From a virus, in the IMG/VR virus record IMGVR_UViG_3300040810_001094, positions 1 through 20,906 of that record: a stretch of DNA of 20,906 nucleotides. One strand, written 5' to 3'. Shown here piece by piece: positions 1,220 to 19,651 of the stretch (its first letter is position 1; each line of letters opens with the position of its first letter). Position numbers and translations under genes: made by a program. The notes under the pieces are model-generated. The model searched no databases, was not told the DNA's origin, and saw nothing but the letters and a program-made list of their open reading frames with translations.

Positions 1220-1798
1220 TTAACTAGATGCGTCGTACTCTTGTGGATTGCTCATATAAATGTTTGAGCCGCCATCTGCACTGAAACATTCAAAAACAAA
1301 CACTGATTTCCTTGCAGGAAATGAAAACGCTGTGCTGTCATCACCGGAAATGTCCATTGGTAATGTTACACCAGTCAATGTGATTGTATCTGAACCTGTG
1401 CCTTTTGTAAGGATGAATTTCACTGTTGCATATGTATTAGTTGTACCATCATCTTCTTTTGGCCAATTTGTAAATGAAATAGTTGTGGCACCACTTGTTG
1501 TAAGGGTAACAACATTGCCATCATTTAGATCAATGCTCTGTGCACCACTGACTGTTCCTAAAGCATTAACTCTTTGGTGCCAATCTCTGAGGTTGATCTG
1601 TGTTACATCGTGACCATTAAAACTTGTTGAGGCATTAGTGGCCGCTCTGTTTGCCTGTAAACTTGTGATTTCTGTGTTTGCAGTATCAAACTGTGTTTTG
1701 ATTTGAGAGAAGTTATCTCTAAAACCCTGTGAGTCGTTGTCTTGTCCAGCTACTGGAAATGTAGCGTCTATTGATGATGTTGTAATTGAACTTGCCAT
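1220..1798 (-). CDS. Tail-fibre or baseplate-type structural protein with N-terminal anchor module
   Basis: The first 50 residues carry a marine-phage fibre signature: an inverted hydrophobic start (FPVAGQDNDSQGFRDNFSQI) followed by a short helix. It matches in style the modules (INIG..., GTGD, NFxExYD) in the two fibre genes at 9494 and 11071. The rest is Thr/Ser/Gly/Asp-rich and predicted beta (VVTLTTSGATTISFTNWP, LTKGTGSDTITLTG), as in trimeric fibre shafts and tips. It is probably a virion protein fixed to the tail or baseplate by its N-terminus. An exact TATAAATA late promoter lies 20 bases upstream, and AGGAT serves as a ribosome site before the CATATG start. The exact structural role is unknown. 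Confidence 0.75.
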   Translation of the reverse strand: MASSITTSSIDATFPVAGQDNDSQGFRDNFSQIKTQFDTANTEITSLQANRAATNASTSFNGHDVTQINLRDWHQRVNALGTVSGAQSIDLNDGNVVTLTTSGATTISFTNWPKEDDGTTNTYATVKFILTKGTGSDTITLTGVTLPMDISGDDSTAFSFPARKSVFVFECFSADGGSNIYMSNPQEYDASS

Positions 1799-1825: not shown

Positions 1826-3371
1826 TTGGAGTCCTGATTAATTCACGCTGTTTTGAAGTATGAATTATATTATCCATGATATCATTTCTAACCAGCAATA
1901 ATTGTGTATCTTCAGGCTGTTTATTATCGAAGGTAATAGTTTGGTTGTTAAATCTTGTGCCTTTGTTATCAAAAGTTGTGGTTGCAGAGTCAAAAGACAC
2001 AAACTCCTTCATTCCAAAAGTTGTTTTTTTACGCTTGAAAAGTATGTTTTTTCCGTCAGCAGGGGCGTTGTTAAATGTTAGGACAGTGTTTGTTGCATTC
2101 CATTTCAGATCAGCGGTGTAAACCGTGCCATCAGCAGTATATGACGTTCTATCAGCTCTGATGTCTATATACAGTTCTGATGTTGGTGTTTCTGTGATAC
2201 TATACTGAGATGCATCCAATCCTACGCCGTCAATAGTAACCAGCACTGATTTAGAGTTGGTAACCCGTTGAGTTAACACAAAATCTTTGGTTGATCCGTC
2301 TCCGGTAGCAGTCTGTGATATCCTGTTTTCATCTATGGTAGTTCCATTGTGTTTGGTCACATAAAATCTATCAATGACCACAGGAACTTTTTTTAAATCA
2401 AATGTGGTCTCGTTTTTAATTTTAAACAGTACCTTGTCGGCCTCTCCTGGTTTTACATACTTCAGTGGCAAAACTAATCTGAACCCAGGGGCAATGTTAT
2501 CACCTTGTGGAGATTTCATCCAATGCGGCAAATATTCGTATGATTGAACTGTTAGACCGTTTGTCAGATCTTCTCGCATATTGTTGATGCTGTTGACATA
2601 GACCTGTTCTATAGTGCCACTTGCCCTTATAGGTGAACTCGCAAGAATCTTAGTGGATGAAGCGTAGTAAGTGAAACTGATGTTGTTTAAATTTTGTGTC
2701 CTAAAAATTATTTCATTAGGTGATTTTGCATAGGGATCTATGAGTTCTGCATACACAATTTCGTAAATGGTATTACCTTTTGGATCTTTTGCTTTTGCAG
2801 ATTTTATTTCTCCTAGTTGTAGAGTTGCATTGTAAAAATTCTCATTCATATAACTGTAAATGGTTGTTAGATCTGGAGAAGTGATGCCTGGCAGTATCAA
2901 CACCGCTAGGTCGTCAGTTCTAAAATTCAACGCACCTTTTCGATATATAGATTCATCTGGAAATAGATCCGGATCTGCGATAAAATCCTTGATGCTGACT
3001 CTGGTTGCTTTTGTTGGTCTGAGTTTGGCATATAGATTAGCAATTTCGCCTTTGGTTGTTTGAGTTTCTGTTATAGAAAATTCTTGCTGATCTTTGACAA
3101 CACCGTTCTTGTTTTTTGCCTCAACAGTGAAATGAAATTTTCTATCGATGGTTGTTGTACCTGCGTCAACGGTTGTCACACCCTCATCAAGGTCAAAAAT
3201 CATTGGATCGGTTCTTCCGTAAATTTCTCCTGATGGATCCACTGATAATCCCTGAGGCAACCGTCCTTTGACCAGTCTATACTCCAAAGATTTGCCAGTT
3301 GATGATACCGCCGACACTTTGAATAGGCTGTCCTTGTTCGTTGAAATAGAACCAAGATGAATAGTTGCCAT
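1821..3371 (-). CDS. Large structural protein with Ig-like (He_PIG-type) repeat, 516 aa
   Basis: The N-terminal 110 residues contain a putative-Ig repeat of the He_PIG/cadherin-like kind: a Leu-Pro-x-Gly-Leu core (GRLPQGLSVDPSGEIYG), then a beta strand ending FHFTVEAKN. The middle is beta-rich, with a motif (TATGDGSTKDFVLTQ, followed by VLVTIDGVGLD) recalling phage fibre beta-domains. The C-terminus has short Phe-Asp-Asn repeats (TTTFDNKGTRFNNQTITFDN), a type I associate with marine T4-like virion proteins. The ATG overlaps the stop of the preceding Ig-repeat gene by one base (TAATG), with GGGAG upstream. The two genes were probably expressed and assembled together, likely as tail-fibre or baseplate parts. 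No enzymatic motif was seen. Confidence 0.75.
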   Translation of the reverse strand: MATIHLGSISTNKDSLFKVSAVSSTGKSLEYRLVKGRLPQGLSVDPSGEIYGRTDPMIFDLDEGVTTVDAGTTTIDRKFHFTVEAKNKNGVVKDQQEFSITETQTTKGEIANLYAKLRPTKATRVSIKDFIADPDLFPDESIYRKGALNFRTDDLAVLILPGITSPDLTTIYSYMNENFYNATLQLGEIKSAKAKDPKGNTIYEIVYAELIDPYAKSPNEIIFRTQNLNNISFTYYASSTKILASSPIRASGTIEQVYVNSINNMREDLTNGLTVQSYEYLPHWMKSPQGDNIAPGFRLVLPLKYVKPGEADKVLFKIKNETTFDLKKVPVVIDRFYVTKHNGTTIDENRISQTATGDGSTKDFVLTQRVTNSKSVLVTIDGVGLDASQYSITETPTSELYIDIRADRTSYTADGTVYTADLKWNATNTVLTFNNAPADGKNILFKRKKTTFGMKEFVSFDSATTTFDNKGTRFNNQTITFDNKQPEDTQLLLVRNDIMDNIIHTSKQRELIRTPI

Positions 3372-4468
3372 TATATTTCCATCTCCCTTACATCAGTGGT
3401 CCAGGATATGTCGTTGTAACTTTCTCCCAACACAGTGATGCTGTAATTCCTGCTGTATGCACTGTCTATGAATAGACTTGACGATTTAGTTGCTGTCACT
3501 GTAAAAGTATATGCAGTTTCAACTGCTTGGCTGTAAGCAATGGTACCGTAGATCTCACCTGTCGTTGAATTGATGGACATTCCTGGTGGCAATGATCCAC
3601 TAGTGATTGCGTATGACACAGTGGTATCACCGGAATATTCTAAATAATCACCTGGATCTATGGCATCAATGTGTATGATCTGATAGTTTTGATGTCTGTA
3701 TTGGCCTAACGATCCTGCAGGTTGTACAAAATACAGTGCTCTGACTTCATCCGAATCGGCAAACACAGTATCTGAATCTGCTGTTACATCAGTGGTGTCA
3801 CCGCGTGGTAAAGATGCCAGTGCTTCAACAAATATTTTAAACTTCCTATCTGCGTGGCTGATACCATCTGAAACTCTCACTGTGAATTCATAAAATTTAT
3901 CTATGGCACCACTTCTAGTTGCTTGGTCATAAACCACAGTGTCGTATGGTTGTCCGTCGTGGCCGATTTGAGACGAATCAAAATCTTGTTGTTGTACTGG
4001 CAAGGTCACGCCTGAAATAAATCCAGTGTTCTCATCTATGGTCATGGCCGGAGGAAGTATGCCGTCTATGATTTTATAAGATTTTATATCTGAATCAGAA
4101 TCAGAAGCAAGTAACTGATAAGAAAAATAATCACCATCCCTGGCTGTGCCTATCTGTCCTTCTGCTGTCGTCCAGGTAGGAGCATCCGAACCTTCAACTA
4201 TAATTTTAAATGTTCTATCAGCAACATCGGATGTATCTGAGGCCCTGACCACAAATTGATACTCAGTCCTTTTTGCCACTTCTAAAGGAAATCCGCTGAT
4301 CACTCCACCTGTAGATAGAATCAAACCTTTGGGCAATGATCCAGCTATCACACTGAACGAAAGAGAATCGCCGTCACCGTCGGAAGCACTCAGACTTCTG
4401 GTGTATGCAACACGTTCGTCCACTGTGTCTAAAAGACCAGCCGATGTGTGCCATTTTGGTGTTGCCAT
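3371..4468 (-). CDS. Ig-like repeat structural protein (three He_PIG/cadherin-type repeats), 365 aa
   Basis: Three similar repeats of roughly 90-130 residues fill the protein. Each has a Ser-Leu-Pro-x-Gly core (AGSLPKGLILSTGGVISG; DGILPPAMTIDENTGFISG; SGSLPPGMSINSTTGEIYG) and ends in a strand such as YQFVVRASD or YEFTVRVSDG. These are hallmarks of He_PIG or cadherin-like Ig folds. In phages such domains decorate virion surfaces or fibres and may bind host glycans. The start is well supported: AAGGAG at 4474-4479 lies inside the end of the Cys-rich peptide gene, five bases before the ATG. It is coupled to the next Ig-repeat gene by TAATG. The role as a virion surface or fibre protein is inferred. 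Confidence 0.78.
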   Translation of the reverse strand: MATPKWHTSAGLLDTVDERVAYTRSLSASDGDGDSLSFSVIAGSLPKGLILSTGGVISGFPLEVAKRTEYQFVVRASDTSDVADRTFKIIVEGSDAPTWTTAEGQIGTARDGDYFSYQLLASDSDSDIKSYKIIDGILPPAMTIDENTGFISGVTLPVQQQDFDSSQIGHDGQPYDTVVYDQATRSGAIDKFYEFTVRVSDGISHADRKFKIFVEALASLPRGDTTDVTADSDTVFADSDEVRALYFVQPAGSLGQYRHQNYQIIHIDAIDPGDYLEYSGDTTVSYAITSGSLPPGMSINSTTGEIYGTIAYSQAVETAYTFTVTATKSSSLFIDSAYSRNYSITVLGESYNDISWTTDVREMEI

Positions 4469-4470
4469 TC

Positions 4471-4575
4471 TTACTCCTTACAGCATTTGCAAGAGCAATC
4501 TGGACAATCTCTGCATTCTGCACAACTGCTTCCGCAGTGATGCTCGCATCCACAATCGCATTTACATTCTATCAT
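4471..4575 (-). CDS. Cys-rich 34-aa peptide (metallothionein-like or modified-peptide candidate)
   Basis: A short frame encodes 34 residues, 12 of them cysteine (positions 4, 6, 8, 10, 14, 18, 21, 24, 27, 29, 31, 32), mostly in CxC or CxxC spacing, plus two adjacent His. The peptide begins MIECKCDCGCEHHC and ends CSCKCCKE. Such density is typical of metal-thiolate peptides (metallothionein-like) and is also seen in some Cys-rich precursors modified by radical SAM enzymes. The end of the gene contains the AAGGAG ribosome site of the following Ig-repeat gene. A late-type octamer (AATAAATA) ends exactly five bases before the ATG, so the message may be leaderless. A functional role is unproven, but the orderly Cys spacing argues against chance. 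Confidence 0.6.
   Translation of the reverse strand: MIECKCDCGCEHHCGSSCAECRDCPDCSCKCCKE
4474..4479 (-). promoter_or_regulatory. Shine-Dalgarno AAGGAG for the Ig-repeat gene
   Basis: AAGGAG on the minus strand ends five bases before the ATG at 4468. It lies within the last codons of the Cys-rich peptide, so translation of the peptide and of the Ig-repeat gene may be coupled. Confidence 0.7.
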
Positions 4576-4580
4576 ACTAA

Positions 4581-4588
4581 TATTTATT
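4581..4588 (-). promoter_or_regulatory. Late-type promoter variant AATAAATA
   Basis: The minus strand reads AATAAATA, followed by five bases (TTAGT) and the ATG of the Cys-rich peptide. By T4 late-promoter geometry (octamer at about -13 to -6), transcription would start at the A of the AUG. It lies just after the hairpin at 4593-4618 in the direction of transcription. Confidence 0.5.
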
Positions 4589-4592
4589 TGAG

Positions 4593-4618
4593 TTAGTGGG
4601 CGCCTAAACGCCCACTAA
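4593..4618 (-). terminator. 10-bp GC-rich hairpin after the structural gene
   Basis: A perfect inverted repeat (TTAGTGGGCG, six-base loop, CGCCCACTAA) lies seven bases past the stop of the 158-residue gene. In the minus direction it is followed by AACTCAAATAAA, so there is no U-tract and it is not a classical intrinsic terminator. It may still terminate or stabilise the 3' end of that mRNA, and it separates the gene from the promoter of the Cys-rich peptide. Confidence 0.5.
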
Positions 4619-4625
4619 AGTTGGA

Positions 4626-5102
4626 TTACACTGCGTCAATAGTAACGTGACTTGCTAGAACGCCATCGTCACCGCTTTCTGAAGCATTTAATTCGTAACC
4701 AGTACCAGATGTAATTACATTATTGATTGGTGCTGATCCTGTGTTGCCTGAAACATCAACATAGTGTACAGTTCTTTTGTAGAACCTTGTGATGAACACC
4801 ACTGTTGAATCATCCAAAACACCTCTAACACAGAAAGTGCCATTTTCGTCTAAATCAGAAGGTGCTGTAAGAGCTGTTCCTGAAGAGTCATAACCTTTCA
4901 ATGTGTACACTGCTTCTGTCGAATCTTCTAAGTGGATCTTGAATCTGTTTGATCCTCTTTGATTAACAATATAAGCAATTGTTGATGAAGTGGTTGAACC
5001 ACCTGTTCTATAGCCTGATACAGCTATTTTACTCTGTGTTCCAATTCCACCGGCTGGATAGTTGCTACCTACGAAGTAGGATTTTGATATAGGTCTTCCC
5101 AT
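4626..5102 (-). CDS. Small phage structural-type protein, 158 aa
   Basis: The protein begins MGRPISKSYFVGSNYPAGGI and is Gly/Ser/Thr-rich and beta-like, ending DDGVLASHVTIDAV. From memory, small proteins starting MGRPI and rich in Gly recur among the virion genes of marine T4-like phages. A strong ribosome site (AAGGAG at 5109-5114) precedes the ATG. A late-type octamer at 5198-5205 would give a leader of about 90 bases, and a GC-rich hairpin follows the gene. These features fit a highly expressed, independently transcribed late structural gene. The precise function is unknown. Confidence 0.75.
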   Translation of the reverse strand: MGRPISKSYFVGSNYPAGGIGTQSKIAVSGYRTGGSTTSSTIAYIVNQRGSNRFKIHLEDSTEAVYTLKGYDSSGTALTAPSDLDENGTFCVRGVLDDSTVVFITRFYKRTVHYVDVSGNTGSAPINNVITSGTGYELNASESGDDGVLASHVTIDAV

Positions 5103-5213
5103 TTTTTTCTCCTTTTGTTTTGTCCAACGTGGGTTCTAGCCACTACGCGGAGGATAATACCGCATAAGCCTTGCCAAGCAAGTTCTATTAGACAGTGTAT
5201 TTATTGGTTTTTA
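5103..5213 (-). promoter_or_regulatory. Late-type promoter and structured 5' leader
   Basis: This 111-base gap lies between radical SAM gene 1 and the structural gene. On the minus strand it holds AATAAATA (5198-5205), then a leader with small inverted repeats (CTTGC-TTG-GCAAG and a GCGG...CCGC pair), then AAGGAG before the ATG. It is the longest leader in the window, in contrast with the very short or absent leaders elsewhere. Stabilising stem-loops are plausible; no known riboswitch was recognised. Confidence 0.5.
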
Positions 5214-6275
5214 CTAGTGAATTTCTGTCAGTTTATATCTCTGTCTGATGCCTTGGTTACCACACATTTCAAAACAAATTGGATTATGGTATTTGGCATC
5301 TAATTGCCAAGATTTTTGTAGTAGTTCTACGAAATATTGATGCTGTAGAATATTTGATAAACTGTTTTTGTTAAGATCGTTCCATTCTATTCCAAAATCT
5401 CTTTCGAATTCTGCAAAGATATCTAGTTTATCAATTGGTCTGCCAAATCCGTATTGATTTGCAAACCAACAGCACGGCCATAATTTTTTGTTCCAACTCA
5501 CAAAAATTTCCTTCTGATGTAAAATCACACAATTAATTTCTTTGTAGTCTTCCTTGGATTCTTTGATTAAATTATTCCGTTTTTGTTTGAGTGCTTTTGG
5601 TTCAAATTTTGGATTGTAGGAAGGTTGGATCATATGAGTTGATAATACCATTTTTCCGTCGACCTTTTTGTATTCATAGGCAGGATATGGATCCGGGTTA
5701 CGCATATTTTGTCTAACAACAAACGGAATATTGAGAGAGTCTGCCAGTAGGCTTGCTCTATCTATGTCTTTCTCATTGTGCTTGAACACAAGGTACTGCC
5801 ATTCACACTTGCCACCTTGTGTGGCATATGCAGTCATATTCTCTATCACTTTTTTCCACTGCACATTGATTCTGTACAGATGATTGGTCTCCTCCAATCC
5901 GTCCACGCTGAAAAACAGTTTCAACATTTCTGTCTGCGTAGATAACTCCGCCAATCTAGTAAAAGTGTCTGCCGTGTTGCAACCGGTGTTTGTATAAATC
6001 TCTACATATCCTCCGTTGTCTATGAGGAACTTGACAACAGCATATATGTTTGAGTGCATCATTGGTTCATCTACGGTACCACCCAATGTAAATGTCTTTC
6101 CTGCAATACTACTTTTTGGAAAAACACTTTTTATGTCCTCTATGGACCACTCTGTCAAATTGCCTGCGATGTTGGGATGAGTTTTGCCCTTAGAAGTCCT
6201 TGCACAACCTGGACATCTTGCATTGCATTTGTTTGTGATTTCTAAATGAACACATTTGACATCATCTATGTTCAT
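5214..6275 (-). CDS. Radical SAM protein with C-terminal SPASM/twitch-like cysteines (paralogue 1)
   Basis: The radical SAM cluster motif CNARCPGC (Cys17, Cys21, Cys24; CX3CX2C) lies near the N-terminus, preceded by the typical strand HLEITNKCN. Cys17-24 should bind a 4Fe-4S cluster that cleaves S-adenosylmethionine to a 5'-deoxyadenosyl radical. The C-terminal part has further cysteines (Cys249, Cys268-269, Cys334, Cys338) in a SPASM/twitch-like arrangement, suggesting an auxiliary Fe-S cluster, as in peptide- or protein-modifying enzymes. The start overlaps the stop of radical SAM gene 2 (ATGA). The protein is closely related to the one at 7520; one 30-residue block differs at a single position. 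The substrate is unknown. It is too large, and its extra cysteines are wrong, for QueE. Confidence 0.85.
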   Translation of the reverse strand: MNIDDVKCVHLEITNKCNARCPGCARTSKGKTHPNIAGNLTEWSIEDIKSVFPKSSIAGKTFTLGGTVDEPMMHSNIYAVVKFLIDNGGYVEIYTNTGCNTADTFTRLAELSTQTEMLKLFFSVDGLEETNHLYRINVQWKKVIENMTAYATQGGKCEWQYLVFKHNEKDIDRASLLADSLNIPFVVRQNMRNPDPYPAYEYKKVDGKMVLSTHMIQPSYNPKFEPKALKQKRNNLIKESKEDYKEINCVILHQKEIFVSWNKKLWPCCWFANQYGFGRPIDKLDIFAEFERDFGIEWNDLNKNSLSNILQHQYFVELLQKSWQLDAKYHNPICFEMCGNQGIRQRYKLTEIH

Positions 6276-7498
6276 AACAGATACTCCAATTCTGGATACA
6301 CTGCAAAAAATTTAGTTGTCCTTGTTGCGTCAAAATATTGTATCATATGTTTGAAGTAGGTTCTATCTCTTGGACTTAATTTTCGTTGAGGTTCGCTGTT
6401 TACCCAATTGAGCCATCCTGCATCATCCAGCAAATTATTATCAATCAAACTGTTGACATCATCTTGTATTTGAGAAACTATCTCATTCCTATATTGTAGG
6501 TCTGTGTTTGCGAAATGCAGTGGTGTTGGAGTGTCCAAAAATGTGGGATTGATCTTGATAGAGTTTTTTTTAACGAATTCGATGAATAGTGGTAAACCTT
6601 TCAGATTAAGCATCTGAATTGTTGGCTCTAGGTTAACCGTGATGTTACTGTGTTTCTTAGAAATGGATTTTAGATTAATGATCTTTTTTTCTAATACCGG
6701 CCAATTGCTTGGGTACCTAACATATTCTAATATATCTCCGGTTGCATCTAAGCTGATACCGAGAAAAACTTTTTTAAATTTTGTAAGGTATTTTTCGATC
6801 CAAGATTCTTTGATCACTGTGCCATTGGTGGTCACTGTGAGTGCTATGTGAGAACTCTTGCCAAGATCAACTATTTCTTCGATCAAACTTTGGAAACCTT
6901 TCATCACAAAAGGTTCACCGCCCACTGCACAAATTTCTTTTGTGTGATCTATATTATCAATTATGAAATGAGAAAAATCGTCACTGTAATTGCTTTCGCT
7001 GGTAAGGTACTGTTCAACATTCCACTCGTGTGTGTATGAATTATCTTTGTCTTTTTTATTATACAATGACATATTTTTAGCAATCTGATTGCTGAGTTGT
7101 GGTCTACACATCACACACTGCAAGTTACATTCATTGCTCATCCTTAAACTAAAGATTGGTGGGGAAGGCACAACGGTGGTAGGATTATGGTAATAGAAAT
7201 CTGTTAGTTCTTTTGACCTTGCATTTTCATACTGCCTTTGGGATGGAATGCCCTGACGTTCATTTTCTATGCAAATCCTACACACGTCTTCAGGGACCTT
7301 CCTATCGTTAAATGATTTCCTTATCTGTTGGAAGGTTTCGCCGTTCCATACGTTTTGTATTTCGTTATCAACTATGCTGATATCTTTGGATAAAGGTTGC
7401 TGAGCATAACAACAGGCACGCATCTGACCTTGTGTAGATACAAACATTTTTACAAAGGGATGGACGCAAAAATTTTCGTATGGATCTTTATCTTTCAT
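6272..7498 (-). CDS. Twitch/SPASM-type radical SAM protein, 408 aa (gene 2)
   Basis: This radical SAM protein carries its auxiliary cysteines at the N-terminus: FCVHPF (Cys11), then MRACCYA (Cys29, Cys30), then CRIC (Cys73, Cys76). The radical SAM core follows with CNLQCVMC (Cys124, Cys128, Cys131) and a GGEPF motif that contacts S-adenosylmethionine. The layout matches the phage proteins usually annotated as twitch-domain radical SAM. Its family differs from the paralogous pair around it. It lies between them, overlapping the next gene as ATGA, and AATAAATA sits eight bases before the ATG. The three enzymes probably act in one pathway, but the substrate is not evident. Confidence 0.85.
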   Translation of the reverse strand: MKDKDPYENFCVHPFVKMFVSTQGQMRACCYAQQPLSKDISIVDNEIQNVWNGETFQQIRKSFNDRKVPEDVCRICIENERQGIPSQRQYENARSKELTDFYYHNPTTVVPSPPIFSLRMSNECNLQCVMCRPQLSNQIAKNMSLYNKKDKDNSYTHEWNVEQYLTSESNYSDDFSHFIIDNIDHTKEICAVGGEPFVMKGFQSLIEEIVDLGKSSHIALTVTTNGTVIKESWIEKYLTKFKKVFLGISLDATGDILEYVRYPSNWPVLEKKIINLKSISKKHSNITVNLEPTIQMLNLKGLPLFIEFVKKNSIKINPTFLDTPTPLHFANTDLQYRNEIVSQIQDDVNSLIDNNLLDDAGWLNWVNSEPQRKLSPRDRTYFKHMIQYFDATRTTKFFAVYPELEYLL

Positions 7499-7506
7499 TA
7501 TAGTAG

Positions 7507-7514
7507 TATTTATT
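7507..7514 (-). promoter_or_regulatory. Late-type promoter variant AATAAATA upstream of radical SAM gene 2
   Basis: AATAAATA on the minus strand is followed by eight bases (CTACTATA) and the ATG at 7498. T4 late geometry puts the start site within a few bases of the AUG, leaving no room for a ribosome-binding site. It lies between radical SAM genes 3 and 2, so genes 2 and 1 may also be expressed late. Confidence 0.5.
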
Positions 7515-7519
7515 GAAAG

Positions 7520-8578
7520 TTAAAGGGTAGTGTATTGATAAGATTGCCTTGCACCCTTATCGCCACACTTTTTAAAACAATCAGAACTGTAAAATTTGGA
7601 TCCTCTCTGCCAAGATTTTTGAAGTAGTATGGCATAATATTCGTGTGCCATTATTTCTTCCAGTGTGTGTAAATGCAGGCTGTTCCACCCATCGCCATAT
7701 TCTATGTCAACTTCTTTGAGATGATGATCAGCGTCGAAAAAATAATCACTGGCGAACCAGCAACAAGGAAACACTCGGCCACTCCAATCAACAAATATTT
7801 CTTTTTCGTGGAACATCTTGCAACGTATAGATTTTGCTTTGTCTTGTTCGCTTATCTCAAAGTTTTCTTTCCAATTGGCCACCTTGTCTGTGTCTGGATG
7901 CTCGAGAGATTTGTTTTTGGTCGGATTCACAGTGAATGTTTCTTCAACTATTTTGCCATCAATTTTTTTCTTTGCCACAGCGGTCCAGGGAGCAATGTTT
8001 CTCACATTTTGTCTCAGTACAAACGGAACGCCAAGAGAATCTGCTATATTTTTTGCGTCGTCTATGTCTTTCTCATTGTGTTCGAACACGAGATATTGCC
8101 ATTCGCACTTGCCTCCTTGGGTTGCGTAGGCAGTCATGTTTTCAATCACTTTATGCCAATCTACGTTGACCCTGTACAGATGATTTGTGTCCTCAAGCCC
8201 ATCAACAGAAAATTTGACATCCAATCTGCCTGTTTGCTTTGACCATTTACCAAATGTTTCAAACACTTCTTTGGTATTTGCTCCTGTGTTGGTGAATATT
8301 TCTATGTAGCCGTTGCACTTAAGAATATAGTCCACGATGTCTACTATGTGTGTGTTCATAAAAGGTTCGTCTACTACTCCACCAAATGTAAAAAGTTTAT
8401 TGTCTATGAATTTGGGATCGAAAAATTTTTGGAAGTCGTTCAGACTCCATTGCATCATATGAGGTTTTAACAGTGGATGGGTATCTCCATCGAGGGTCCT
8501 TGCACATCCAGGACACCTAGAATTACACTTGTTGGTAATCTCGAGATGTATGTTCTGTAACAGTGTTGGATGAAGCAT
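7520..8578 (-). CDS. Radical SAM protein (paralogue of gene 1), 352 aa
   Basis: The sequence has the same plan as the protein at 5214: HLEITNKCNSRCPGCART with cluster cysteines 18, 22 and 25, a conserved VDEPF-type segment, and C-terminal cysteines including a CCWFA motif. It should generate a 5'-deoxyadenosyl radical and carry an auxiliary Fe-S cluster. I chose the ATG at 8578 over a TTG two codons upstream because it aligns with the paralogue's start. A perfect sigma-70 promoter has its -10 box ending eight bases before this ATG, so the mRNA would have almost no leader. This is the first gene of the cluster and is divergent from the nitroreductase gene. The substrate is unknown. Confidence 0.85.
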   Translation of the reverse strand: MLHPTLLQNIHLEITNKCNSRCPGCARTLDGDTHPLLKPHMMQWSLNDFQKFFDPKFIDNKLFTFGGVVDEPFMNTHIVDIVDYILKCNGYIEIFTNTGANTKEVFETFGKWSKQTGRLDVKFSVDGLEDTNHLYRVNVDWHKVIENMTAYATQGGKCEWQYLVFEHNEKDIDDAKNIADSLGVPFVLRQNVRNIAPWTAVAKKKIDGKIVEETFTVNPTKNKSLEHPDTDKVANWKENFEISEQDKAKSIRCKMFHEKEIFVDWSGRVFPCCWFASDYFFDADHHLKEVDIEYGDGWNSLHLHTLEEIMAHEYYAILLQKSWQRGSKFYSSDCFKKCGDKGARQSYQYTTL

Positions 8579-8586
8579 TTTCAATA

Positions 8587-8615
8587 ATTATACCTAAATT
8601 TCACTTGATTGTCAA
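8587..8615 (-). promoter_or_regulatory. Perfect sigma-70 promoter for the radical SAM cluster
   Basis: The minus strand reads TTGACA (8615-8610), 17 bases, then TATAAT (8592-8587). The predicted start site is near 8580, two bases before the ATG at 8578. Its -35 box overlaps by one base a weaker divergent promoter serving the nitroreductase gene. Confidence 0.8.
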
Positions 8616-8633
8616 TTGCTGATAGTGTAGAAT
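8605..8633 (+). promoter_or_regulatory. Divergent sigma-70-like promoter for the nitroreductase gene
   Basis: TTGATT, a 17-base spacer, then TAGAAT on the plus strand; the predicted start near 8640 is about four bases before the ATG at 8644. It overlaps the divergent, stronger radical SAM promoter, so the two probably compete for polymerase. Confidence 0.5.
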
Positions 8634-8643
8634 AATTATTGAT

Positions 8644-9492
8644 ATGGATAATTCTTTTAATTTCGAGCATCATTTATCAAGAGTAAAAGCAACCAGGAAA
8701 GCACAGCGTAACTGGGATCATTCCAAACAGTTACCAGACGAAACAGTCCAAAGACTCATCGACGTGGCCGTAAATGCTCCGGCAAAACAGGATGAGGCAT
8801 TCTTTGATCTATATGTGCTTACCAATAGAGATACCATCAGAGAAATGTATCTAAATCATTCATGGGGGTTTAATCAAGACAACAACATCAATTACCGTAA
8901 TCCCCAAATTGATGCTCACGCTGTATTTGTTTTTGCTAGGGCAGTGCCACAAACTAATAGAAATGATTGGATCGACGGCAGTCAAAAAGTCACCCAACCA
9001 TTTAGCCGTTCCTGGGTGAACACCCTGGAAGCCATAGGCATAGCATCAGGATATGTAACACTTACAGCATCGTTGATGGGATTGACCATTGGGTACTGCA
9101 AGAACTTTTTCTTCCAACCTCAATCTCAGGACAGATGGTGTGAAGTTTTAGGACACAAGGAACCTTGCCATCCGGATGCGGATCCAAACTCATACACATA
9201 TGGCCAAAGTGATCCTCCTTGGCAAGATCCAGTATCAGGTGGAAACTCCACTATTTTGCATATGATAGGTGTTGGTTATCCCGACGAAAGTTTAAAATGG
9301 TATCAAAGCAGAGACACCCAATATATGACCAGTGATCCCAATGATAAAATTTTTGGAGAAGTTGATTCACTGTCTATGCCCGGCATAGTAAAAGAAATAG
9401 ACAAGGATGTGATCGAATTTTCAACTTACAGTCACGATCCTGCTACAAACAAATCTATAGATAGACCACACAATGTGAAGTGGATCAAATAG
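8644..9492 (+). CDS. Nitroreductase-family flavoprotein, 282 aa
   Basis: The N-terminal part fits the nitroreductase/FMN-reductase family: an Arg-rich start (RVKATRKAQRNWD), LPDETVQRLIDVAVNAPAKQDEA where FMN contacts usually lie, then a helix-rich middle (LEAIGIASGYVTLTASLMGL) matching the second conserved block. Such enzymes reduce nitro groups, quinones or enoyl-type substrates using NAD(P)H and FMN; some act on peptides or cobalamin precursors. The residues between about 180 and 205 (PDADPNSYTYGQ) and the C-terminal tail are unusual. It is one of only two plus-strand genes and is divergent from the radical SAM cluster, so a linked redox step is possible. The substrate is unknown. Confidence 0.75.
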   Translation: MDNSFNFEHHLSRVKATRKAQRNWDHSKQLPDETVQRLIDVAVNAPAKQDEAFFDLYVLTNRDTIREMYLNHSWGFNQDNNINYRNPQIDAHAVFVFARAVPQTNRNDWIDGSQKVTQPFSRSWVNTLEAIGIASGYVTLTASLMGLTIGYCKNFFFQPQSQDRWCEVLGHKEPCHPDADPNSYTYGQSDPPWQDPVSGGNSTILHMIGVGYPDESLKWYQSRDTQYMTSDPNDKIFGEVDSLSMPGIVKEIDKDVIEFSTYSHDPATNKSIDRPHNVKWIK

Positions 9493-9493
9493 A

Positions 9494-10735
9494 TTAACTT
9501 GTAAACAAGTCTAAGTTCCAAGCACCGTCGTTGAATATGGCAGTAGCCATCAGTCTAGCAACCTTCGTTGAATCACTTCCAAAGATAGGAGCATTGAACG
9601 GAAGCCATTCATAGTTTTCTATGATTTCACCGGTAGTATCTCTGACCTTGGCCACAGTTACTTTAGTTTCATTGACAGGATTATTTGTAGAGTCTGCTGA
9701 ACTTCCGTGGCCTACTGTGAAATAGATCAACAATCCGTTGGCCGCAACCGGAGCTGACAATGTGTAACCTTGCTCACCTGCCTTTAGGTAATGGATGGCA
9801 GTTGAAAGATCAAGGTCCACGGTAGAGTTATCTGTGAGATCATCAACACCATAAGTGATGGAACCGTTTATCACAGCAAATCCATCAACAGTAAGACTGT
9901 TTTCAATTTTGATCTGCGGTAAGAAAGTCATTTCAGATGAGTCATTGGATTCAATCCTTGCACAGGTAAGTGTGCCATTGACATCAAGTCCATCATTTAT
10001 CGTTAGTGCTGTAGAGTCAGGTGAACTAATGTTGTTGACCGACAGCGATCCTCCCGCAACAGCCAATGATCCACTGATGTTTACATCTTCTTGTATCTGT
10101 ATGGCTGATGAATCTTCCGAACTGATGATGTTCACATCGATTGTGTCCACGCTCAGTGCACCGGATATATTAACAGCATCGTTGATTTGCACAGCAGTCG
10201 AATCACCGGAAGATATAGAATTTACTTGTAGTGTATCGCCTTCGATGTTTGCAACAATGGTTGATGTAGAGTTGAGTGACACAGCCGATGAGTCAGATGA
10301 TCCAGCTAGTCCAGCCTTCCATTTGTCATCACCTTCATCCCAATAAAAGAATGCGGCATCTGTGCCTGATCCTCTGTTGACAAATATACCAGCGTCAACA
10401 TCAGCACCAGAAGAGTTTCTGTTGAGTTCTAATAGATTGTCCTCTATCTGTAAAGAGGTTGTGTCGATTTGTGTTGCTGAGCCTTTAAATTCTATTGGGC
10501 CATTGATAAACACTGTGCCTGTGCCGTTTGGGTCAATCGTGATGTTGCCGTTTGTTGTTCTGTTTGTGATTGTGGAACCCTGAAAATATAGATCAGACAG
10601 TGACGAAGCACTTGGTCCACCTAGTGTGTCGTAGATTTCATTGAAATTGTCGTTGATTTTATCGAACGCCGTTCTTAGCGGATCACCTGTGCCGTCATTG
10701 GCCGCTGATCCTATGTTAATTGCTTGTTTTGACAT
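9494..10735 (-). CDS. Tail-fibre protein with N-terminal anchor module and beta repeats, 413 aa
   Basis: Residues 1-38 hold the anchor motif INIGSAANDGTGDPLRTAFD followed by NFNEIYDTLG, shared with the gene at 11071. The middle contains four or five repeats of about 25-30 residues with the pattern ISSxDSTAxxIxDxxxxxG (for example SSGDSTAVQINDAVNISGAL and SSPDSTALTINDGLDVNGTL), typical of beta-solenoid or trimeric fibre shafts. The C-terminal 120 residues form a distinct beta domain, probably the tip. It likely acts in host recognition or tail attachment. GAGGAGT precedes the CATATG start, and a late-type ATTAAATA lies upstream. It ends one base from the convergent nitroreductase gene. Confidence 0.8.
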   Translation of the reverse strand: MSKQAINIGSAANDGTGDPLRTAFDKINDNFNEIYDTLGGPSASSLSDLYFQGSTITNRTTNGNITIDPNGTGTVFINGPIEFKGSATQIDTTSLQIEDNLLELNRNSSGADVDAGIFVNRGSGTDAAFFYWDEGDDKWKAGLAGSSDSSAVSLNSTSTIVANIEGDTLQVNSISSGDSTAVQINDAVNISGALSVDTIDVNIISSEDSSAIQIQEDVNISGSLAVAGGSLSVNNISSPDSTALTINDGLDVNGTLTCARIESNDSSEMTFLPQIKIENSLTVDGFAVINGSITYGVDDLTDNSTVDLDLSTAIHYLKAGEQGYTLSAPVAANGLLIYFTVGHGSSADSTNNPVNETKVTVAKVRDTTGEIIENYEWLPFNAPIFGSDSTKVARLMATAIFNDGAWNLDLFTS

Positions 10736-10759
10736 ATGTTAAAACTCCTCTGGTAAGTG

Positions 10760-10772
10760 TATTTAATAAATA
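10760..10772. promoter_or_regulatory. Overlapping divergent late-type octamers between fibre and zinc-ribbon genes
   Basis: The minus strand reads ATTAAATA (10767-10760) facing the fibre gene; the plus strand reads AATAAATA (10765-10772) facing the zinc-ribbon gene. Each is one mismatch or so from TATAAATA. The fibre side has a leader with GAGGAGT; the plus-strand gene has no clear ribosome site. AT-rich chance matches are possible. Confidence 0.4.
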
Positions 10773-10792
10773 TTTTTATAAACCTAAAGTAA

Positions 10793-11074
10793 ATGTTCAT
10801 CAAAGAAACCACAGAAATACACCTACATCAGCGTGAATCCAAACTGGGCAATGTCCACAACTTCAAACGACGTCGAACAGTCTACCATTTTCGCTGTGAT
10901 TCTTGTGACAAAGAATTCCTCAGAGACAAAGCCAAAGTTTCACCCAAGCGAGCAACCAATGATTATCATCATGTGTGTGCTTCGTGTGATGTCCACAGAT
11001 ATGCTCAACAAGTGGGTGTTGAAATGAGAAAAGTTTGGCAGTTGGATGCCAGTTCTACTGAAGTGAAACTTTAA
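10793..11074 (+). CDS. Small zinc-ribbon/treble-clef protein, 93 aa
   Basis: The protein has two CxxC knuckles (Cys35/Cys38 in FRCDSCDKEF and Cys62/Cys65 in HVCASCD), separated by a basic loop with two His just before the second knuckle. This looks like a zinc-binding treble-clef or ribbon of the kind found in small phage nucleic-acid-binding proteins. No HNH catalytic residues are evident after the second knuckle, so I do not call it a nuclease. The N-terminal part is basic (KRRRTVYHF). It is transcribed against both surrounding fibre genes and overlaps the end of the gene at 11071 by four bases, which suggests an inserted accessory gene. The function is unknown. Confidence 0.75.
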   Translation: MFIKETTEIHLHQRESKLGNVHNFKRRRTVYHFRCDSCDKEFLRDKAKVSPKRATNDYHHVCASCDVHRYAQQVGVEMRKVWQLDASSTEVKL

Positions 11075-11472
11075 CCTTGAGATATTTTTAGTGTGCCTGA
11101 ATCGTTCCACAGTTGGCCCGCGTTGTTTGGATTTACTGTTGGCAGATTAGACAGCATAACCACAGCACCATTGACTGTGAGTCCATCTTCCACAGTGACC
11201 TGAGCAGAATCATCTGACTTGATTGTGTTTACCACTAGATCAGCATCAATCACTACATCGCCTGTGCCGTTGGGTGATATGTTGATGTCTGTGTTGGTGA
11301 ATGTGGATGATATCACGTTACCTGAAATATCAATGGACTTGCCTGTGGAATCTTGCCCAATTAGATCGTATAATTCATCGAAGTTATTGTTTACTTTCTG
11401 CATTGCAGAACGCAGTGTATCGCCTGTACCTGTGTTTACAGCGGTTCCTATGTTAATTCGTTGCTTTGGCAT
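11071..11472 (-). CDS. Short fibre-like protein sharing the fibre anchor module, 133 aa
   Basis: The N-terminus (INIGTAVNTGTGDTLRSAMQ, then NNNFDELYDLIG) is a clear homologue of the start of the 413-residue fibre protein. Its middle contains one copy of the same shaft unit (KSDDSAQVTVEDGLTVNGAV). The last 25 residues include a QLWNDSGTLKIS ending common in short fibre proteins. It may be a short accessory fibre, a fibre-tip adaptor, or a duplicate that lost the shaft. A late-type AATAAATA ends exactly five bases before the ATG, and there is no obvious ribosome site, so the mRNA may be leaderless. Confidence 0.75.
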   Translation of the reverse strand: MPKQRINIGTAVNTGTGDTLRSAMQKVNNNFDELYDLIGQDSTGKSIDISGNVISSTFTNTDINISPNGTGDVVIDADLVVNTIKSDDSAQVTVEDGLTVNGAVVMLSNLPTVNPNNAGQLWNDSGTLKISQG

Positions 11473-11477
11473 ACTGT

Positions 11478-11485
11478 TATTTATT
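11478..11485 (-). promoter_or_regulatory. Late-type promoter variant AATAAATA abutting a start codon
   Basis: AATAAATA on the minus strand, five bases (ACAGT), then the ATG at 11472. T4-type geometry would start transcription at the A of AUG. It lies in the 18-base gap after the IscA-like gene. Confidence 0.5.
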
Positions 11486-11490
11486 GCAGT

Positions 11491-11811
11491 TTACTTAACA
11501 GAGAATGATGTACCACAACCACACTGGGAACCAGCGTTTGGATTGTTGTAGGTAAAATAAGATCCGAAGACCTCTTTTTTGTAGTCAACTTGAGTGCCTA
11601 AGAGATAGAATTCGCACACGGGATCGATCAAGATTTTGACATCGCCGTACTCTAGTACTTGATCCTTGTCGGTCTTTTCTGCTTCGACATCCATCTTGTA
11701 TTCGAATCCAGCACATCCGCCTCCTTTGACTCCGAATCGTATGTAAGGTTTGTTGTGTTCCTTCATTACTTCACGCATCTTATCAACGGCTGTTTCTGTA
11801 AAAGTGAGCAT
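11491..11811 (-). CDS. iscA: A-type Fe-S cluster carrier (IscA/ErpA/HesB family), 106 aa
   Basis: The length and the three family cysteines fit an A-type carrier: Cys33 in GGGCAGFEY, and Cys97 and Cys99 in QCGCGTSFSV. Such proteins are usually dimeric and carry or deliver Fe-S clusters or iron to target enzymes. It starts LTFTETAVDKMREVM, typical of HesB-like domains. It follows the Nfu and SufT-like genes after an 11-base gap, so three Fe-S delivery factors are clustered. It also has a late-type octamer (AGTAAATA) five bases before its CATATG start, which could allow separate late expression. Whether it acts as IscA, ErpA or SufA cannot be told from sequence alone. Confidence 0.88.
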   Translation of the reverse strand: MLTFTETAVDKMREVMKEHNKPYIRFGVKGGGCAGFEYKMDVEAEKTDKDQVLEYGDVKILIDPVCEFYLLGTQVDYKKEVFGSYFTYNNPNAGSQCGCGTSFSVK

Positions 11812-11816
11812 ATGTG

Positions 11817-11824
11817 TATTTACT
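11817..11824 (-). promoter_or_regulatory. Late-type promoter variant AGTAAATA abutting the IscA-like start
   Basis: AGTAAATA on the minus strand, five bases (CACAT), then the ATG at 11811. It overlaps the stop codon of the SufT-like gene. It has two mismatches to TATAAATA and is supported mainly by having the same five-base spacing as two other sites. Confidence 0.38.
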
Positions 11825-12128
11825 ATATTCCTAAAATCAGTCTTGCTTCCTCTGACATCTTGTCTGGCCCAAAAGGAGGGTCGAATGTGGTGATAACCTC
11901 ACAATTGTCTATACCTTCTATGGTTTCTGCCGCCCCTTTGATATCTGAAATAATCTGATCGGCCATGGGGCAAAATGCTGAGGTCAGAGTGTGTGTAACT
12001 TTTGCTTTTGGCAGTTCATTCAAATCAATGTCATAGATCAATCCAAGGTCGTACACATTAATCGATATCTCAGGATCATATACATTCCTAAGGTTCGTTA
12101 TTAATTGTTCTCTAATTTCGTGGCTCAT
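11823..12128 (-). CDS. sufT: SufT/MIP18-type (DUF59) Fe-S maturation protein, 101 aa
   Basis: This is a stand-alone DUF59 domain with the family core: DPEISINVYDLGLIYDIDL, then TLTSAFCP containing Cys53, and a C-terminal DPPFGPDKMSEEARLIL close to the usual W/FGPxxMSxExRxxLG ending. Relatives include SufT, PaaD and the eukaryotic CIA2/MIP18 proteins, which help deliver Fe-S clusters to target enzymes. It is the full length of the domain. It overlaps the Nfu gene stop as ATGA and is therefore translationally coupled. A role in loading clusters on phage or host radical SAM enzymes is an inference. Confidence 0.88.
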   Translation of the reverse strand: MSHEIREQLITNLRNVYDPEISINVYDLGLIYDIDLNELPKAKVTHTLTSAFCPMADQIISDIKGAAETIEGIDNCEVITTFDPPFGPDKMSEEARLILGI

Positions 12129-12646
12129 AATATTTTAACCTGTTTTATTTCGGGCACGGCTGAGTGCAGTTTATTATACATTGCTCCCAATGTGGCTTCA
12201 TTGTTGGGGCATCCCCAACAGGAACCGTGCATTTCTAGTTCGACCACACCATTTTCGAACTTGATGAATTTGATATCTCCCCCATCTAATTGTATGGATG
12301 GACGGATATCTTCTTTGATAATTTTCCTTACAGCACAACAAATTTCATCGGTGCAGTAGCGGTCTGTCTCACCTTGTTCTATGTATACAGTATGGTTTTC
12401 CATCACTTCTTTGATCCTTGGTGATATTTCCGTCCAAGGCCATTGTGAAAACTTGGTTACTGTCAGTTCATCATTCTGAAGCAGAGCAAATCTAACTCCA
12501 GCAATTCGGAAAATATTTTTGATGAACTCGTTGCCTTGCAAGGCGAGATCTATGTCATACCAAACAGAACCTTGTCCTACCACAGTTCTTCCAAACTTGT
12601 ATTTGAGAGCCTCTGGATTGGGTGTTGGTTCTGTTTGTATGAACAT
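12125..12646 (-). CDS. nfuA: Nfu-type Fe-S cluster carrier with N-terminal Nfu domain, 173 aa
   Basis: Residues 1-85 match the Nfu N-terminal domain (starts MFIQTEPTPNPEALKY, as in alphaproteobacterial and mitochondrial Nfu). Residues 100-173 are the NifU-like C-terminal domain with DGGDIKF and the cluster-binding CxxC (Cys143, Cys146 in GSCWGCPN). It usually forms a dimer holding a 4Fe-4S cluster for transfer to target proteins. The family typically has CSGCP; here the x residues are Trp-Gly. The sequence also has extra cysteines (RYCTDEICC near residues 97-104), which is unusual. It starts on the final base of the SOD stop (TAATG) and couples to the SufT-like gene. Confidence 0.88.
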   Translation of the reverse strand: MFIQTEPTPNPEALKYKFGRTVVGQGSVWYDIDLALQGNEFIKNIFRIAGVRFALLQNDELTVTKFSQWPWTEISPRIKEVMENHTVYIEQGETDRYCTDEICCAVRKIIKEDIRPSIQLDGGDIKFIKFENGVVELEMHGSCWGCPNNEATLGAMYNKLHSAVPEIKQVKIL

Positions 12647-13278
12647 TACAATTCTAGCAACTTAGACTCAATGAACTTGTAGTTGACGAGATGATCGATC
12701 CAATTTTCTAGATATTTTTTCCTGTCGTTCTTGAAATCTAAGTAATATGAATGTTCCCAAATGTCACAGGACAATAGAACTTCGACTTCATCACCTATGG
12801 GATTATCTGCATTAGATGTTGTCTTCCATCTAAGTTGATCATCTTCAAACACAAGGAATATCCATCCTGACCCAAATCTCTTCATACCTGCATCGACAAA
12901 TTGTGATTTGAATCCTTCCATAGAACCAAAGTCTTTTTCAATCCTATTTTGCAGTTCCTCGCTAGGATCTTCATATTTGGGTGTCATTGACTGCCAAAAA
13001 ATGATGTGATTGTAATTTTGTCCAGCATTGTTGAATATGCCGTCATTGTCATCACGCGACTGTGTTATGATTTCCTTTAGGCTTTTGCTTTCATATTCGG
13101 TGCCTGATATCAAATCATTTAGTTTGTCTATGTATGTTTGATGATGTTTTCCGTGATGGGTCCTCAGTGTTTCTCTCCCCATATATGGTTCCAATGCACT
13201 TTCTGAATAAGGCAACTCCATCAGTGTGAATTTTTTACCCGCAACATTAATATCGTCTGCTACTTGGTCTACTTTCAT
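12646..13278 (-). CDS. sodB: Fe-type superoxide dismutase, 210 aa
   Basis: The sequence is a complete Fe/Mn superoxide dismutase. The metal ligands are visible as His41 (THHGKHHQTY), His91 (NHIIFW), Asp172 and His176 (DIWEHSYYLDF). Gln87, four residues before His91 (AGQNYNH), is the position where Fe-type enzymes carry Gln, and TSNADNP lacks the Mn-type Gln, so an iron enzyme is most likely. The protein converts superoxide to hydrogen peroxide and oxygen. It has an N-terminal extension of about 18 residues with no signal peptide features, so it is probably cytoplasmic. It follows the AT-hook gene by one base and leads the Nfu-SufT-IscA run. Confidence 0.92.
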   Translation of the reverse strand: MKVDQVADDINVAGKKFTLMELPYSESALEPYMGRETLRTHHGKHHQTYIDKLNDLISGTEYESKSLKEIITQSRDDNDGIFNNAGQNYNHIIFWQSMTPKYEDPSEELQNRIEKDFGSMEGFKSQFVDAGMKRFGSGWIFLVFEDDQLRWKTTSNADNPIGDEVEVLLSCDIWEHSYYLDFKNDRKKYLENWIDHLVNYKFIESKLLEL

Positions 13279-14548: not shown

Positions 14549-14576
14549 ATTATAACTTGTGTTATGCTTTTGTCAA
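14549..14576 (-). promoter_or_regulatory. Perfect sigma-70 promoter abutting the UV-endonuclease start
   Basis: TTGACA (14576-14571), 16 bases, TATAAT (14554-14549), then AAAGT and the ATG at 14543. The -35 hexamer doubles as the Leu-Thr codons near the end of the carbamoyltransferase gene. The predicted transcription start coincides with the AUG. Confidence 0.82.
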
Positions 14577-17892: not shown

Positions 17893-17920
17893 ATTATACT
17901 ATAGATTGGTATAGTGTCAA
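17893..17920 (-). promoter_or_regulatory. Perfect sigma-70 promoter abutting the lipoprotein start
   Basis: TTGACA (17920-17915), 16 bases, TATAAT (17898-17893), six bases (AAAAGT), then the ATG at 17886. With the usual six-base discriminator the first transcribed base is the A of AUG. It lies in a 62-base gap with no other recognisable element. Confidence 0.85.
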
Positions 17921-18631: not shown

Positions 18632-18659
18632 ATTATAAACTATTCTTCTGATTTGTCAA
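18632..18659 (-). promoter_or_regulatory. Perfect sigma-70 promoter abutting the 135-aa gene start
   Basis: TTGACA (18659-18654), 16 bases, TATAAT (18637-18632), six bases (AAAACT), then the ATG at 18625. The -35 box is within the final codons of the preceding gene. The predicted mRNA begins at the A of AUG. Confidence 0.85.
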
Positions 18660-18974: not shown

Positions 18975-19651
18975 CAGTCAGACCAATCTCTGGCTATGCC
19001 TCTGGGAAGATCTATGTATCTACCAATGTTGTCCTCAGTTTCTAGTTCACCAAAACATTCTATTCTCTGTTTACATTTGTGGCATTCGCCACAATGATGG
19101 TTATTTTGAGAAGTTCTGTTTTTACAACTGGTAGTGTGTTGGTACAATTTGTGTAGATCATATGACTCAAAGAATCCTGCAATCTGTTGTTTATCTAGTT
19201 GAACCAAAGGATAAAATACGGAAGTAGTTTTATTTTGTTTGAAATATTCAGATTGATAATCGTTCTTATTCAATCCTATGAAATGTGCATCGGCACCTTG
19301 ATATTTGTAGATATTCTTTGTGAACACATCAAGTGATTCTTTGAACTGTATCTGATTGGTTACTGTGGCCTGCATTTTTTCAAATTTTGTGTTGCATAGA
19401 AACTCTACTAACTCAATAATGTGTTTAGCATAATGCACATCGAATGGTGTGTCATTGATCAACATTGTGACAGGAGTGATGCTGATCTCTGGTCTGATCA
19501 AACTTTTGTACTGTGCCAAAGCATATGCCATCAATGCACTATTGACTCCACCACTTATTTGCACTAGGATTTTGTTGAAGTTTTTAGGAATTTCGACAAA
19601 AAAACTGTCACTTCCTGAAGAAAATATGATTGTATTGTCTTTGATGATCAT
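18971..19651 (-). CDS. queC: QueC-like PP-loop ATPase, 226 aa, with Asn-substituted PP-loop
   Basis: The PP-loop lies at residues 33-38 (SGGVNS) and the C-terminus carries the four zinc cysteines typical of QueC (Cys176, then CGECHKC with Cys187, Cys190, Cys193). QueC makes 7-cyano-7-deazaguanine from 7-carboxy-7-deazaguanine with ammonia and ATP. The usual signature is SGGxDS; here Asp is Asn (codon AAT), which might change nucleotide handling or signal a different substrate. The length fits the family. The ATG overlaps the stop of the infA gene by four bases. With the QueD-like gene it hints at a 7-deazaguanine pathway for DNA or tRNA modification, though other PP-loop activities are possible. 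Confidence 0.72.

Follow-up and report, generated by a model that had tools for sequence, protein, structure and literature searches.

The stretch analysed here (the window, 20,906 nt) comes from the genome of a marine jumbo phage, uncultured and akin to Pseudomonas phage PA5oct, of which it is a fragment. Its late-type octamers ending in TAAATA are, very probably, T4-type (gp55-like) late promoters that yield leaderless mRNAs, alongside others that are leadered. Across the lineage of the window, TAAATA peaks sharply at exactly 5 nt before start codons. The 20.9 kb of the window make up the entire record of an incomplete genome, hence genome-wide tests were moved to relatives: eight related contigs (452 kb in total) or, for some tests, ten.

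Late-type octamers in the window are of two kinds

The first-pass annotation had reported three octamers separated from an ATG by five bases and a fourth, with eight bases, before radical SAM gene 2. All four are present as described, on the minus strand (Table 1), yet that list omitted three leadered octamers on the same strand. Because of these three, the late-type octamers of the window are mixed and not uniformly leaderless.

Table 1. Promoter-like elements and associated genes in the window (gap, nucleotides between box and ATG; SD, Shine-Dalgarno).
Feature	Positions	Strand	Details
Leadered octamer TATAAATA	1825-1818	minus	upstream of gene 1220-1798 (p192); gap 19, SD present
Ig-like (He_PIG) structural/tail gene	3371-4468	minus	PF05345, 3e-30; phrog_8763 (tail)
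Cys-rich ORF, 34 codons (MIECKCDCGCEHHCGSSCAECRDCPDCSCKCCKE)	4472-4575	minus	first codon is the predicted transcript 5' end
Late-type octamer AATAAATA	4588-4581	minus	N5, then ATG 4575
Octamer AATAAATA	5205-5198	minus	95 nt upstream of ATG 5102; SD AAAAGGAG
Radical SAM gene 2	6272-7498	minus	phrog_14086, 1e-13
Octamer AATAAATA	7514-7507	minus	N8, then ATG 7498; without SD
Leadered octamer ATTAAATA	10767-10760	minus	gap 24, SD AGGAG; before gene 9494-10735
Short fibre-like gene	11071-11472	minus	T4 gp9/10 N-terminal domain, PF07880, 1e-9; phrog_677
Late-type octamer AATAAATA	11485-11478	minus	N5, then ATG 11472
IscA-like Fe-S protein gene	11491-11811	minus	PF01521, 1e-18
Octamer AGTAAATA	11822-11815	minus	N5, then ATG 11811; overlaps upstream stop codon
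Early-type promoter TTGACA-N16-TATAAT	14549-14576	minus	ends 5 nt before ATG 14543 (UvdE)
Early-type promoter TTGACA-N16-TATAAT	17893-17920	minus	ends 6 nt before ATG 17886
Early-type promoter TTGACA-N16-TATAAT	18632-18659	minus	ends 6 nt before ATG 18625
Phage translation initiation factor IF-1 gene	19648-19881	minus	PF01176, 2e-23

The Cys-rich ORF has relatives in the near-identical contig G001 only, and a Pfam search gave no match for its peptide. An AAGGAG at its end serves the next gene (ATG 4468), the Ig-like structural gene, which would be served by the same predicted promoter. The ortholog of this Ig-like gene in G003 and in L095 (G012) is preceded by TAAATA at a gap of 6 nt.

TAAATA is placed precisely against start codons

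As a mere count the octamer is uninformative: WWTAAATA occurs 7 times in the window against 6.6 expected, and is therefore not enriched. Its position is another matter. The arrangement TAAATAN5ATG was found 3 times anywhere in the window against 0.46 expected (4 of 100 shuffles reach 3), and the expectation falls to 0.10 for the same 3 occurrences when only ORF starts are considered (0 of 200 Markov simulations).

The first-pass annotation had proposed looking for a peak in all upstream regions of the genome; run on the eight contigs, this analysis gave 0 boxes at gap 4, 58 at gap 5, 21 at gap 6 and 16 at gap 7 before start ATGs, counts that are not independent given the kinship of the contigs. 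Permuted hexamers yielded about 5 at gap 5, and the Markov null about 2 (maximum of 5 in 60 simulations). Further upstream there are at most 2 boxes at gaps 11-14, then a low plateau at 15-24, making for a two-class distribution. With ten contigs, 69 matches were obtained against 10 for the reversed pattern. In the window lineage, an unbiased scan of hexamers by offset also ranked TAAATA at gap 5 first of all signals (n=14, p=1.4e-10). Gaps of 6-8 are common in the lineage too, and would need leaders of 1-3 nt or some wobble of the start site.

Features of the sites point to transcription start at the A of AUG

The 58 gap-5 sites define a consensus [A/T][A/G/T]TAAATA, with C at 2% in both positions preceding TAAATA, so that, as far as sequence goes, the octamers are close to the T4 octamer TATAAATA. 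A pyrimidine occupies position -1 in 47 of them (81%), compared to 1125 of 2522 background positions (45%, p=2.6e-8). Where a late promoter has a leader, a purine stands 6 nt past TAAATA in 70% of cases in L097-156 and in 91% in Syn9. This purine matches T4, whose late box begins at -13 (PMC2988020), and both observations agree with a start at the A of AUG. From spacing, pyrimidine, purine position and T4 geometry, transcripts are predicted, as proposed earlier, to start at this A, which would be the 5' end of the message. A Shine-Dalgarno is found at 1 of the 58 gap-5 sites, as opposed to 10 of 27 sites with gaps of 15-30, as befits leaderless messages. The proposal that the late promoters give leaderless transcripts is thus supported for the gap-5 class, but a leadered class exists as well.

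These boxes could instead belong to ordinary early genes with leaderless messages, as -10 elements (TANAAT-like) recognised by the host sigma. TAAATA does look like a -10 box, and early promoters of sigma70 type in the lineage form a leaderless set of their own, in which TATAAT stands at gap 6. Yet -35 elements accompany 19 of 24 TATAAT gap-6 starts (79%) and only 14 of 58 TAAATA gap-5 sites (24%), with no excess over background (746 of 2522, 30%), as in T4-type promoters. The gap also differs (5 versus 6), the octamer extension is present, and the boxes associate with virion genes and with gp55-encoding genomes. We consequently regard a host-sigma origin as unlikely.

The boxes are conserved and probably act as promoters

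Gap-5 boxes persist at orthologous genes despite diverged flanks. Of the 35 distinct sequences found upstream of the virion gene p116, 33 have a gap of 5, and all 33 carry a pyrimidine at -1. The octamer before the IscA-like gene retains its gap of 5 in the orthologs of G002, G003, G012, G027, G030 and G031, while that of the short fibre-like gene has a gap of 5 in G002 and of 9 in G003. Virion structural families are found among the gap-5 genes of G012 and G003, and in the Pelagibacter phage HTVC008M the genes with gap-5 sites bear late annotations (head completion, wedge, tape measure, DNA end protector and tail completion). The HTVC008M start codons predicted to begin transcripts are at 6280, 7562, 11972, 18943, 19456, 31132, 49760, 75559 and 75830 and, on the minus strand, at 16007 and 18916. 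From these families and annotations, the boxes appear to drive late and virion genes, as T4-type promoters do.

A second alternative is that TAAATA 5 nt before ATG is no promoter but a translation signal, such as an A/U-rich ribosome standby site or a non-SD initiation element. It would sit in the position of the Shine-Dalgarno where the latter is absent, and A+T-rich upstream regions are found in many SD-poor genomes. The gene p192 argues otherwise: the hexamer is kept upstream of most orthologs in the clade, mostly at gaps of 18-34 and mostly with a Shine-Dalgarno, whereas in L095 it is found at gap 5 without one. That a box mostly leadered in the clade is at gap 5 in one relative suggests that TAAATA behaves as a promoter. 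Likewise, permuted A4T2 hexamers show no such peak, except those overlapping TAAATA or TATAAT, the -1 pyrimidine is a feature of transcription starts, and in Syn9 and T4 TAAATA lies mainly 20-29 nt out. A translation signal is, in our view, likewise unlikely. Chance, through A+T-rich sequence and TAA stop codons at gene junctions, would fit the unremarkable octamer total of the window and the third site, which starts inside the upstream stop codon, but is extremely improbable given that, for the lineage and for two Pelagibacter phages, the exact spacing far exceeds the controls (shuffled sequence, permuted hexamers, reversed pattern and Markov null), and that boxes are conserved at orthologs with diverged flanks.

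A late sigma factor is found in complete relatives

The first-pass annotation had made its case depend on gp55- and gp33-type genes. Homologs of gp55 were found in G011, G010, PA5oct and HTVC008M, that is, for the clade, in complete relatives only. PHROG and custom HMM searches of the lineage contigs, which miss the gp55 neighbourhood of G011, gave none, and blastn of the gp55 contigs against the lineage showed no overlap. The gp33 family (PF16805) matches only T4, Syn9, HTVC008M and Melnitz; it was not detected in G011, PA5oct or relatives, where a diverged gp33 is possible. The sliding clamp system of T4-type late transcription is represented by the gp44 clamp loader (phrog_168, E 3e-81).

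Early promoters are placed likewise

The claim that the late set mirrors an early set is borne out across the eight contigs, in which TATAAT at gap 6 (n=24) and TTGACA at gap 28 (n=29) are enriched. The UvdE promoter is arranged similarly in the G003 ortholog. The phage IF-1, with orthologs in G003 (88%) and G031 (80%), is possibly relevant to leaderless translation.

We propose that a gp55-like late sigma of the phage directs the host RNA polymerase to a single A+T-rich -10-like box, with no -35. A start some 6 nt past the box would place +1 on the A of AUG at gap 5, and a large share of the late genes of the lineage, including virion genes, would be made as leaderless mRNA, translated through direct ribosome recognition of the 5'-terminal AUG. 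The remaining late genes would retain a leader of at least 10 nt, often with a Shine-Dalgarno, and early sigma70-type promoters would be placed likewise against the ATG. A genome-wide leaderless programme is a more tentative reading, which we hold possible but rather doubtful: promoters of both sets, the early one read by the host sigma and the late one of gp55 type, would put +1 on the A of AUG, the phage's own IF-1 would favour initiation at 5'-terminal AUGs, and the late half would have arisen separately here and in Pelagibacter phages through a late promoter moved onto the start codon.

Comparison with known systems

Among isolates, jumbo phages of the PA5oct kind come nearest to the window, and the label of classical T4-like phage was dropped for it. 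PA5oct is the closest isolate group by gp44 (56% identity), shares the gene order DnaJ/ClpA/PhoH/gp44 and has a gp55 homolog; replication and virion genes and their order in common ally the lineage informally with the PA5oct group (Arenbergviridae). PA5oct differs in having no gap-5 peak (4 versus 2.5 expected), and at its p116 ortholog the box stands at gap 22, accompanied by an SD-like AGAGG.

In the textbook case of late transcription, that of T4, the mRNAs are leadered and SD-translated. T4 and Syn9 resemble the lineage in the octamer class, the lack of a -35, the location upstream of virion genes, the start about 6 nt past the box and gp55, present in complete relatives. They differ in that their box lies some 20-30 nt before the ATG, while the main class of the lineage is at 5 nt without Shine-Dalgarno; no gap-5 peak of TAAATA was found in T4, Syn9 or PA5oct. 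The T4-type system also comprises gp33 besides gp55 and gp45, and gp33 was not detected in the PA5oct-like clade. In the Thermus phage phiYS40, most middle and late mRNAs are leaderless (reviewed in PMC3594737), as is predicted here for a large share of late genes; its host is another, and the window lineage has both early and late promoter sets abutting the ATG.

The Pelagibacter phages HTVC008M and Mosig (Kyanoviridae) share the placement: at their late genes, too, exactly 5 nt separate TAAATA from the ATG. In the hexamer scan, TAAATA at gap 5 ranks second in HTVC008M (n=11, 1.8e-9), and G011 prefers gap 4, its top signal (n=11, 7.8e-8). HTVC008M and Mosig are, unlike the window lineage, true T4-like phages with another spacer consensus (TAAATAGTAAT-ATG), and HTVC008M has both gp55 and gp33. 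We found no report of the 5-nt spacing in the literature on this group, and such strongly conserved placement against the start codon is apparently undescribed until now for T4-type late promoters. A published search for late promoters in pelagimyophages failed (PMC7029224), which this placement may account for. With a probable T4-type promoter joined to the start codon throughout a marine lineage, and also in Pelagibacter phages available in culture, start codons and transcription start sites can be predicted precisely, and the cultured hosts offer a way to ask if phages steer ribosomes to leaderless messages.

A late-type box five bases before start codons

The window comprises a whole IMG/VR record of 20,906 bases, a genome fragment, and we compared it with its relatives G001, G002, G003 and G012 and with ten further contigs, G022-G031 (ClpA 75-84% identity). 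The gp44 clamp loader encoded by the near-identical G001 and by G003 is related to its counterpart in PA5oct, a jumbo phage of Pseudomonas (at 56% identity in the case of G003); the gene order around gp44 is common to this neighbourhood and PA5oct. The first-pass annotation had described three late-type octamers five bases before an ATG and a fourth at eight bases, and their sequences and spacing proved exact (see table). The octamer count alone was at chance level (7 vs 6.6 expected), while TAAATA ending five bases before the ATG (gap 5) occurred at 3 ORF starts against 0.10 expected (0/200 simulations). Three more minus-strand octamers are leadered, at gaps 19 and 24, each with a Shine-Dalgarno (SD) sequence, and 95 nt upstream. 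Between divergent genes, at 10760-10772, a minus-strand octamer (ATTAAATA) overlaps one on the plus strand (AATAAATA); G002 and G003 have a comparable TAAATA pair.

Features in the window
Feature	Position	Strand	Basis or remark
Late-type octamer AATAAATA-TTAGT-ATG	4588-4573	minus	sequence
Late-type octamer AATAAATA-ACAGT-ATG	11485-11470	minus	sequence
Late-type octamer AGTAAATA-CACAT-ATG	11822-11809	minus	sequence
Octamer AATAAATA-N8-ATG, upstream of radical SAM gene 2		minus	sequence
Predicted 34-codon Cys-rich ORF	4472-4575	minus	14 Cys/34 residues
TTGACA-N16-TATAAT, end 5-6 nt before ATG	starts 18625, 17886, 14543
Translation initiation factor IF-1 (PF01176)	19648-19881	minus	orthologs in G003, G031

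Across eight lineage contigs (452 kb), whose relatedness makes the counts non-independent and ortholog comparisons the better evidence, TAAATA-to-ATG gaps of 0-10 occurred 3, 0, 2, 0, 0, 58, 21, 16, 7, 5 and 4 times, with at most 2 at each gap of 11-14 and a low plateau at 15-24. The enrichment that the annotation proposed to test for appeared in these related contigs as a peak at exactly gap 5: 58 sites against a mean of about 5 for permuted hexamers, the highest of which overlap TAAATA or are ATAATA (overlapping TATAAT), and 2.2 (maximum 5) under a Markov null. An unbiased scan covering every hexamer at every offset placed TAAATA at gap 5 first in the lineage. The exact TAAATA-N5-ATG pattern was present in 10/10 of G022-G031, with 69 matches vs 10 for the reversed pattern (summed over contigs, some also among the eight).

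Promoter or ribosome signal

Sequence comparisons argue that the gap-5 box acts as a promoter, not a ribosome signal. Only 1/58 gap-5 sites has an SD; the base at -1 is a pyrimidine in 81%, vs 45% elsewhere (p=2.6e-8), C is almost excluded from the two bases preceding TAAATA, and a -35 element shows no excess at these 58 sites. For the virion gene p116, the gap is exactly 5 in 33/35 distinct upstream sequences; the spacers of these 33 vary, and all of them carry a pyrimidine at -1. The gap at p116 is 4 in G011 and 22 in PA5oct. Gap 5 is kept before IscA in the window, G002, G003, G012, G027, G030 and G031, with gap 25 at locus L117. Upstream of p192 (window 1220-1798), TAAATA is kept in most orthologs at gaps of 18-34, mostly with an SD; the L095 ortholog has it at gap 5 without one. 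Leadered sites mostly carry a purine 6 nt past the box (91% in Syn9, 70% in the wider PA5oct-like clade), consistent with the T4 late box of 8 bp starting at -13 (PMC2988020), so that gap 5 predicts transcription starting at the A of AUG.

The suggested mirroring of early and late promoters also held, both classes being placed at the start codon: in the lineage, TATAAT is enriched at gap 6 (24 sites) and TTGACA at gap 28 (29 sites), and in the wider clade (L097-L156) TTGACA is enriched at gap 29 (27). The wider-clade signal marks an enrichment of leaderless-type early promoters at loci where most late promoters are leadered.

Late factors and neighbouring genes

Homologs of the late sigma gp55 were found in G011, G010, PA5oct, HTVC008M and other large relatives, and none in the lineage contigs, which cover none of the genes flanking gp55 in G011. 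Matches to the co-activator gp33 (PF16805) were confined to true T4-like phages. Leaderless translation is reported to be stimulated by IF1 and IF2 and inhibited by IF3 (review, PMC9031893); the phage IF-1 may be linked to the leaderless-type promoters.

The Cys-rich ORF, metallothionein-like in composition and present only in the window and G001, possibly encodes a small metal-binding protein. It lies between octamer and Ig-like gene, its end providing AAGGAG for the next ATG, whereas in G003 and L095 the box directly abuts the Ig-like gene (gap 6); the window octamer may therefore serve both a small acquired candidate gene and a structural gene. Fe-S assembly genes (IscA-like, FeS_assembly_P, NifU/Nfu) adjoin superoxide dismutase (SOD) at 11491-13278 (minus), and three radical SAM genes occupy 5214-8584; together they are perhaps a phage Fe-S supply module. 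SOD and IscA matches in records named as Staphylococcus, Listeria or Salmonella phages (e.g. OR850395, AFYI01000005) appear to be bacterial sequence included among the phage records.

Comparison with other phages

Thermus phage phiYS40 is a known case of leaderless phage mRNAs (PMC3594737), so such mRNAs are not new as a kind; in the literature searched we found no description of their combination with a T4-type late promoter. Late-promoter prediction has been attempted in pelagimyophages and failed (PMC7029224). The Pelagibacter phages HTVC008M and Mosig have 12 gap-5 sites vs 1.0 expected, many at annotated late genes, and 9 vs 0.9, respectively. Sixty clade loci fall into two classes, gap 5 (21 vs 4.6 in the control) and gap 18-24. 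G011 (L024-L036) prefers gap 4 over 5 (12 sites at gap 4; T at -1 in 92%), and the distance from box to start site may vary by a single base with the type of gp55. T4, Syn9 and PA5oct have no gap-5 peak; in T4 and Syn9 the box lies mainly 20-29 nt before the ATG.
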